Assembly: GCA_017536895.1 (NCBI GenBank)
Contig: JAFWCN010000012.1
Location: 1-36,279, forward strand
Reading direction: 5' to 3'
DNA length: 36,279 bases
Source of the DNA: Candidatus Saccharimonadota bacterium
GTDB lineage: Bacteria; Patescibacteriota; Saccharimonadia; Saccharimonadales; Saccharimonadaceae
In this document: positions 28,194 to 30,233 of the stretch, piece after piece
How positions within the stretch are numbered: position 1 is the first letter of the stretch
How the letters are laid out: the number at the start of each line of letters is the position of its first letter
Program-made: the position numbers and the translations under genes
The notes under the pieces: generated by a model
What the model saw: the letters and a program-made list of their open reading frames with translations, nothing else
Told to the model about the DNA's origin: nothing
The model's database searches: none

Positions 28194-30233
28194 CTATAGC
28201 AAACCTGGCGGGTCAAGCGTAACCTTAAAATTCGGGTCAAGCCCAGATAAAGCCTCCAGTAAAACCTTTCGCGTTCTTGCTCGCACAATAATTTGCCAAG
28301 TATAACCTCTATTAGTTCGTTCATGAAATGCTGGTTGAGGCGGGGAAACGATTAGTCGCGTGTCAGCGGACAGTTTTTTAACCAACTCCCGCACTTTCCG
28401 GAGTACCACCGCCTCTGTTTTCATGGTGATTTCGAGCTTCGCTACGAATCTAAATGGCGGAAACCCAGCACGCTGCCGTTTGGAAATCATATACTCATAA
28501 AACCCCAGATAGTCTTCCTGCATGGCAAAGAGTAGCACCGGGTGCTCTGGTTGATATGTTTGGATAAACACTTCTGCCGTATCAATATGACCTCGGCCCA
28601 CCCTTCCAATTACCTGCGTCAGAAGCTGAAAAGTTCGCTCCTCCGCCATATAATCAGGAAGCGACAAACCCGCATCCGCTTGCACTACCCCTACAGTAGC
28701 GAGCTTCGGTAAATCCAATCCCTTTGCCAAAGTCTGTGTCCCCACTAGAATATCAACCTCGCCATCCCTCACCTCTGAATAGACTGCATCTAACCCCTCA
28801 CCTTTTTTGTTATCTGCATCGAAACGTCGTACCCGAGCCTTGGGGAAGAGCCGCTTCAATTCATTCTCTAGAAGTTTCGTCCCAAATCCCTTGTGAAGTA
28901 GTCCCGGCGCCCCACATTTTGGACATCCCGCCGGTACTTTCTCCGAAAAACCGCATGTATGACACTGTAATACATAGTCATCTGCGTGAAGTGTCAGAGG
29001 CAAATAACAATTCGGGCACAAAATCTCCTCGCCACAATTATCGCAAATCGTTAGTGGCGCTGAGCCCCGTCGGTTATGAAAAATCAAAGTTTGCCTCCCA
29101 TTCTCCAGATTATCAGCAATTGCCTTCAAGAGGGAATTACTAAAATACCGATTGCGCGAAAACTCACCCCTGTCTTTTAAATCAATCATTTTGATCTCGG
29201 GTTTCATTGCAGATGATAACGCCTTTTCTTTCAATGCCACTACCGTCTTGCGCATCGAGGCAATATAGTAATCTTCCACTGTCGGAGTAGCCGACCCCAA
29301 GATCAACGGACAGTCTACCTCTTGAGCCATAAAACTCGCCACCCGAATTGCCGAATACTTCGGCGCGTTCTCTTGGTGATAAGTACTCTCGTGTTCCTCA
29401 TCGATAATAATTAAACCTAGTTTCGCTACGGGTGCAAAAAGAGCAGAACGCGGCCCAATCACAACTAGAGGCTCCTCGGATTCAAGGATACCTTCAAAAA
29501 TCAAATGTCTCTCCGCTTCGGTTTGCTGAGAATGTATCACCACTACACGATCACCAAACACCTCCTTAAACACCTGTACCAATTGCCCCGTAAGAGCGAT
29601 TTCTGGCACCAAAAGCATAACTGCTTTTTGCTCTGAAAGGGCCATAGCAGCCATTTTAAGGTAGATGTTTGTTTTACCACTACCAGTAACACCATAAAGC
29701 AGTTTCGTGGCTCCTGGAGCCTTTAAAAGGCCTTCTAGGGCACTTTTTTGGGGGGCATTAAGCGGAATATTGGCCGGAAGACGACAAGGACATTCTAACG
29801 AAGGGGCATTTCGGAGCGCGGCAGCGCGAGAATTAGCGCGCGAGCCCCGTAGCGACGGGCGCGAGCGACGCGGCCCCGAGTAGAATGTCTTGTCGTCTAT
29901 CATACCGAACATTTGTTCGGTTTTACGCCTCCGCCTCTGTTTCTCAACCCCTCTAGGCAACACCAAAGAGACAGCTTGCCCCGACGGCACCATATAGTAA
30001 TCATGTATGAACTTTACAGTTTTTAATAAATGTTTCGGCAGCGGCTTTGAATACAAAACTTTCAAAATCGATTTAGTCTTAAAATCCGGTTGCGCAACTT
30101 TTTTAACGACCACACCCGGCACTACGCGCCGCCCAATCGGCACTTGAACAATTTGCCCCAGCAAAAGGGAATCATCAAAAGAATAGGTCAACTCCTCCAC
30201 CCTCCCCTCCGGTATCACCTCATAAAAAAACAT
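28194..30233 (-). CDS. priA: Primosomal replication protein N' (PriA helicase)
   Basis: A 679-aa superfamily 2 helicase. The N-terminal DNA-binding domain is followed by Walker A GVTGSGKT, DEEH, GSATP, the zinc module with four Cys pairs (CDNC, CPNC, CHTC, CPKC), then GTQTLAKGLDLP and QVIGRVGRG. It restarts stalled replication forks by loading the helicase. Oddity: residues about 112-151 (FYSGPRRSRPSLRGSRANSR and on) come from a 120-bp, very GC-rich palindromic insertion that keeps the reading frame, placed in the linker before the helicase domain. The ATG is exactly six bases after TATAAT (30245-30240), so it is leaderless. Confidence 0.93.
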   Translation of the reverse strand: MFFYEVIPEGRVEELTYSFDDSLLLGQIVQVPIGRRVVPGVVVKKVAQPDFKTKSILKVLYSKPLPKHLLKTVKFIHDYYMVPSGQAVSLVLPRGVEKQRRRRKTEQMFGMIDDKTFYSGPRRSRPSLRGSRANSRAAALRNAPSLECPCRLPANIPLNAPQKSALEGLLKAPGATKLLYGVTGSGKTNIYLKMAAMALSEQKAVMLLVPEIALTGQLVQVFKEVFGDRVVVIHSQQTEAERHLIFEGILESEEPLVVIGPRSALFAPVAKLGLIIIDEEHESTYHQENAPKYSAIRVASFMAQEVDCPLILGSATPTVEDYYIASMRKTVVALKEKALSSAMKPEIKMIDLKDRGEFSRNRYFSNSLLKAIADNLENGRQTLIFHNRRGSAPLTICDNCGEEILCPNCYLPLTLHADDYVLQCHTCGFSEKVPAGCPKCGAPGLLHKGFGTKLLENELKRLFPKARVRRFDADNKKGEGLDAVYSEVRDGEVDILVGTQTLAKGLDLPKLATVGVVQADAGLSLPDYMAEERTFQLLTQVIGRVGRGHIDTAEVFIQTYQPEHPVLLFAMQEDYLGFYEYMISKRQRAGFPPFRFVAKLEITMKTEAVVLRKVRELVKKLSADTRLIVSPPQPAFHERTNRGYTWQIIVRARTRKVLLEALSGLDPNFKVTLDPPGLL
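29779..29898. repeat. 120-bp in-frame palindromic insertion element in priA
   Basis: The ends are inverted repeats: AGACGACAAGGACATTCTA (29779-29797) and TAGAATGTCTTGTCGTCT (29881-29898), complementary over 18 bp with one bulged G. The 80-odd bases between are far richer in G+C than priA and contain smaller inverted repeats such as GGGGC/GCCCC and CCCGT/ACGGG. The length of 120 is a multiple of three and no stop occurs in the priA frame, so it adds 40 Arg/Ala/Ser/Pro-rich residues. This resembles the Rickettsia palindromic elements in kind, not in sequence. I see no second copy in the window. Confidence 0.75.

Follow-up and report, generated by a model that had tools for sequence, protein, structure and literature searches.

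The priA gene of the Candidatus Saccharimonadota bacterium studied here occupies positions 28194..30233 on the minus strand of the window (the whole 36,279-nucleotide stretch of DNA that was analysed). It is interrupted by an imperfect palindrome of 120 bp (29779-29898) that is read through in frame as residues ~112-152 of the 679-residue protein. The original prediction described this segment as an in-frame palindrome with 18-bp inverted ends, far richer in G+C than the gene, free of stops and placed in the linker between the DNA-binding and helicase domains, and all of these features held up. The ends AGACGACAAGGACATTCTA (29779-29797) and TAGAATGTCTTGTCGTCT (29881-29898) match each other as reverse complements along 18 bp, in arms of 18-19 bp with one extra, bulged G on the left (29788/29789). 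Because the bulge interrupts an arm, a gap-free repeat finder missed the palindrome. The G+C content is 0.633 over the 120 bp and 0.763 over 29803-29878, compared with 0.467 for the remainder of priA; the 679-residue frame has no stop across the insert, and Pfam places the insert between PriA_3primeBD (residues 15-93) and a DEAD/ResIII domain that begins at residue 156. The predicted RNA fold of the element has an energy of -69.4 kcal/mol (z -5.4), which none of 200 dinucleotide shuffles equalled, and its DNA fold gave z scores of -5.0 and -5.3 against dinucleotide shuffles. A search of Rfam returned no match to the element, and inspection by eye of this one copy showed no direct target-site duplication.

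A second, perfect palindrome that had been noted 6 bp away (ACCGAACA) is indeed present, at 29904-29921 (ACCGAACATTTGTTCGGT), but it lies outside the element and belongs to priA itself, as it is conserved also in priA relatives that have no insert. Within it, CGAACNNNNGTTCG resembles the Gram-positive LexA box. The pattern AAAACCGAACA..TGTTCGG is present in 51 of 80 priA loci, and a short LexA-like DNA-binding protein is encoded elsewhere in the same genome as the window (G000 C14:59395-59580).

The part of the insert that recurs is its centre. A conserved 75-bp core (29803..29877, plus strand), which we assign to subfamily A, comprises a closing stem, one short hairpin and one long hairpin, and has about 27 matches, some of them partial, in the 836-kb genome (G000). 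On the plus strand the core is flanked by a left stalk arm (29779..29802), whose outer part is site-specific and whose inner, core-adjoining part (GAA) is weakly conserved, and by a right stalk arm (29878..29898) complementary to it. The inverted ends had been put forward as the fixed ends of the element and as the handle by which to find further copies; instead, the arms vary from site to site, and the window copy is the only place in the genome where its arm sequences occur. A hairpin scan that made no use of the core, covering 431 kb, recovered 19 strict hairpins, compared with none in Markov shuffles, and about 12 of the 19 were GC-rich copies of the core-element kind. Among the loci collected from this and other genomes (denoted L, the genomes G), we assigned 44 copies to core subfamily A, 23 to B and 7 to C.

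Copies of the core reside mainly within genes. Of 74 copies, orthologous copies included, 63 fall within open reading frames of 180 codons or more. Both orientations are represented, and some copies lie between genes. For each orientation a single reading frame is used nearly always (30 of 31 antisense and 10 of 10 sense copies in subfamily A, again counting orthologous copies). From our reading of the translated open reading frames, with Pfam confirmation for PriA alone, the hosts include TsaD, MnmA, UvrB, UvrC, GatB, IleRS, Der, GyrA, LepA, Obg, TypA, PheT, ArgS and an aminopeptidase. The claim that a mobile palindromic element spreads within coding genes is supported as regards dispersal, in-frame residence and patchy occurrence, but not as regards inverted ends as its signature.

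The core is common across one genus and almost missing elsewhere. In a 60-genome sample it was found in 26 genomes of the same genus and in none of 24 other genera of the order, and among 245 genomes of the class it was confined to 3 of 109 genera, all of one family. The relatives of this PriA come from Saccharibacteria metagenome-assembled genomes, mainly of rumen or gut origin and including Candidatus Nanosyncoccus alces. Comparison of their priA genes had been suggested as a check on mobility, and the insert proved to be present in some loci and absent from others rather than shared by all relatives: five carry the insert seen here (L089, L091, L093, L095, L096), two have other hairpins at the same spot (L090, L092) and three have none (L094, L097, L098). 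In L090, L092, L119 and L149 the priA linker holds hairpins that differ from this element and have other cores, and the linker looks like a hot spot for hairpin inserts. Such hypervariability, with unrelated hairpins in some relatives, would also be expected of a non-mobile structure that arose locally in the priA linker; we give this reading almost no weight, as it is refuted by the occurrence of the same core at about 26 further places in the genome and across the genus. Carriage by viruses was considered and rejected: three 19-mer matches in viral contigs fall within phage genes, are not accompanied by the remainder of the core and seem fortuitous, and annotated phages gave no match. We also rejected TGTTCGGT as a DNA-uptake sequence, since it occurs 16 times in ~395 kb and is absent from the enriched words. 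In two places, L008/L022 (G000 C16:3601-3746) and L023/L026 (G000 C7:4832-4941), partial cores flank another palindrome (AGAAATCCGAGC...GCTCGGATTTCT), as though the core copy had been split by the arrival of a second element.

The structure of the core is conserved. In a set of 31 A cores, 28 of them distinct, a 26-pair fold was satisfied at 95.9% of paired positions, and 14 of the 26 pairs had changes on both sides; the pairing, the number of two-sided pairs and the covariation score each exceeded all of 500 shuffles. The fold was derived from one member, which favours it in the slide control and leaves the two-sided changes unaffected. Mean information content over the core is 1.52 bits per position. 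In this model the single-stranded core is predicted to adopt a T shape, with two hairpins borne on the closing stem. A strong RNA fold and two-sided changes that keep the structure are what one would expect of a functional RNA, a hairpin that works within the mRNA or is taken out of it, whether like an intron or by being bypassed. Against this, the element is found both sense and antisense to its host genes as well as in intergenic DNA, Rfam holds no match, and an element that was removed would have no need of a near-constant open frame in each orientation. We regard a role as functional RNA as very improbable, and intron-like removal in particular was rejected in view of the frame and orientation of the copies.

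The stalk arms, of ~22-24 bp, differ in sequence at each site and yet remain self-complementary. Within one copy, 87-89% of positions 6-20 are paired between the two arms, compared with 53-57% for arms mismatched between copies, and pairing drops to the control level past ~24 nt. Much of the outer arm carries almost no information, and the inner ~8 positions are weakly conserved with a pyrimidine/purine bias. Similarity between cores says little about their arms: where cores are at least 95% identical, left arms are 38% identical, compared with 33% for less similar pairs, and the arms of L180 and L239 are unrelated even though the two copies match at every position of the 75-bp core. Within a site the two arms change together, 9 of 18 arm pairs being altered on both sides among priA orthologs (as in a change from GACGAC/GTCGTC to GATGAT/ATCATC). 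The core itself is inverted at one site, with L277 and L286 having common arms and oppositely oriented cores, and the sister locus L310 is empty. When L067 is compared with its orthologous copy L214, the right flank of L067 appears to have been altered in a way that makes it complementary to the left one, and the stem would then reach ~40 nt. A pair of outer motifs, ACGGGTGG...CAGGACCCGT, lies beyond the variable arm in L093, L095, L167, L119, L270, L278 and L285, which are possibly a longer form of the element; as some copies share ACGGGTGG/CAGGACCCGT, part of the arm can be element-owned. Extra bases are unevenly distributed, with 54 in left arms and 11 in right arms, at preferred positions (left 4-5 and 13-16, right 8-9) that are read from a simple pairing alignment. 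Their placement is set by the core and is independent of gene direction, a hint that a protein recognises the single-stranded hairpin.

Sister genomes provided pairs of filled and empty sites in which the origin of the arms could be examined. At L214 the right arm resembles the empty allele over ~30 nt, at L065 the right arm encodes DINVSMPGF where the native sequence is DISVSAPGF, and at L202 the left arm is native; the signal is carried mainly by these three sites. Resemblance is suggestive at L062, L067, L180, L169 and L064, and absent at L239 16488, L013, L061, L290 and L277. When arms were swapped for those of other copies, the summed gain in native matches was equalled in 4 of 20000 draws with 14 sites and in 15 of 50000 draws with 17 sites (p about 3e-4), the signal being weak at each individual site. 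That one arm comes from the target and the other is an inverted copy of it is supported, not proven, because the permutation was run after the examples had been seen and three sites had been set aside beforehand: L130, L149 (both read by eye; neither arm of L149 looks native against its empty site) and L016 (maybe a deletion). L131 was rejected as an empty counterpart of L130, as it retains an apparent core remnant. The empty sites read by eye gave no support to the idea that the core had entered the loop of a palindrome already in place, in which case both arms would be native. The empty sites suggest an inverted rather than a direct duplication of the target.

We think it somewhat probable that the insert is a selfish, non-autonomous fold-back element of one Saccharibacteria family, in which each insertion joins the core to an inverted duplicate of ~20 bp of target, most probably through template switching by a polymerase. 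In the course of replication or repair, the nascent 3' end of a strand would switch onto the single-stranded core and copy it; the nascent strand would then fold back via the closing stem of the core, copy the adjoining target in reverse and rejoin its template, leaving an insertion made up of the core plus the reverse complement of ~20 bp of target. Further switches of template inside the hairpin would preserve the complementarity of the arms and could turn the core around at its site, and stop-free, in-frame copies would persist in linkers and loops where the encoded peptides are tolerated. Both the template switching and the selfishness of the element are what we infer from these patterns. 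The positions of the bulges are what the template-switch model explains least, as simple inverted copying does not account for them. The fuller picture, of a mobile element that needs no dedicated transposase, duplicates its target in inverted form, builds a new host-derived stalk around a T-shaped core at each site and spreads as translated inserts in essential genes, we put forward tentatively, with a little less than even confidence.

The competing account, which we consider possible though rather unlikely, is a conventional element resembling a Rickettsia palindromic element (RPE) or a MITE, with inverted ends of its own and some transposase to move it, its ends diverging rapidly through compensatory changes and its cores being homogenised by gene conversion. 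The weak conservation and pyrimidine/purine bias of the inner ~8 arm positions, the outer motifs common to certain copies at priA and within the G064-G067 group, and bulge positions suggestive of a recognised hairpin are all in keeping with it. Identical cores with unrelated arms would, however, demand conversion tracts that at many sites end precisely where the core does, and the native-like arm at some empty sites counts against it. Nor did a search for a mobiliser favour it: Y1 transposases numbered zero in G000 and were found in 1 of 36 genomes of the same genus, reverse transcriptases were lacking in G000 and in the copy-rich G003, G018, G025 and G026, and the tyrosine recombinases counted showed neither an excess nor any tracking of copy number. 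These are the families that the search spanned; a transposase of another family, such as a DDE enzyme, would have escaped it.

If the arms are target-derived, the fold-back reading could explain how the element spreads in ~0.8-Mb genomes without a Y1 transposase or a reverse transcriptase. With tens of new peptides inserted into the conserved proteins of each genome, the element offers a natural experiment in protein tolerance beyond the Rickettsiales, and the in-gene copies call for caution in the annotation of Saccharibacteria proteins. Our literature search, with subscription journals mostly outside it, found no report of such elements in Saccharibacteria, and their novelty is provisional.

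Among known systems, RPEs, also found in Wolbachia, are palindromic repeats of ~100-150 bp that lie in frame in unrelated conserved genes as well as between genes (PMC2229807, PMC10969869). The link to Rickettsia that had been proposed appears to be one of lifestyle, in that both are dispersed, stop-free palindromes within open reading frames that form long stem-loops, a likeness drawn from descriptions rather than from aligned sequences. It does not extend to shared inverted ends: RPEs are described as having terminal inverted repeats that belong to the element, whereas the Saccharibacteria element, from another phylum, has site-specific arms and a conserved core. Shared terminal inverted repeats, by which MITEs are recognised, are likewise lacking, as arms are unrelated between sites barring the inner ~8 nt and a few outer motifs. 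Its stalk, which at each site seems to be built from the host gene, is unlike what is usual for mobile elements.

The attC sites of integrons form imperfect hairpins with bulged bases, in which the arms pair despite their variable sequence; they have conserved R-box ends and depend on an integron integrase. Here it is the centre that is conserved and the arms that vary, the outer arms included, tyrosine recombinases counted as one class show no excess, and the copies do not lie in cassette arrays. REPs and REPINs form families of multi-copy hairpins with Y1 (RAYT) transposases. They too are non-autonomous and numerous, and their stems show asymmetric irregularities (PMC3733652); the Saccharibacteria element is far longer, mainly intragenic, without conserved arms and without a Y1 transposase in G000. 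The mitochondria of Nematomorpha have inverted repeats within translated genes in which both arms encode conserved protein, and the abstract of that account mentions no dispersed core (PMC6649704).

Template switching at inverted repeats yields reverse-complement copies, homogenised arms and inverted spacers (PMC8604942, PMC8794818), and the co-variation of arms in priA orthologs and the inverted core at L277/L286 resemble this correction of quasipalindromes. Quasipalindrome correction is a local mutation, whereas the conserved 75-bp core has been dispersed to many sites. If its arms are target-derived, the element would represent a mode of insertion that joins selfish repeats with template-switch mutation.
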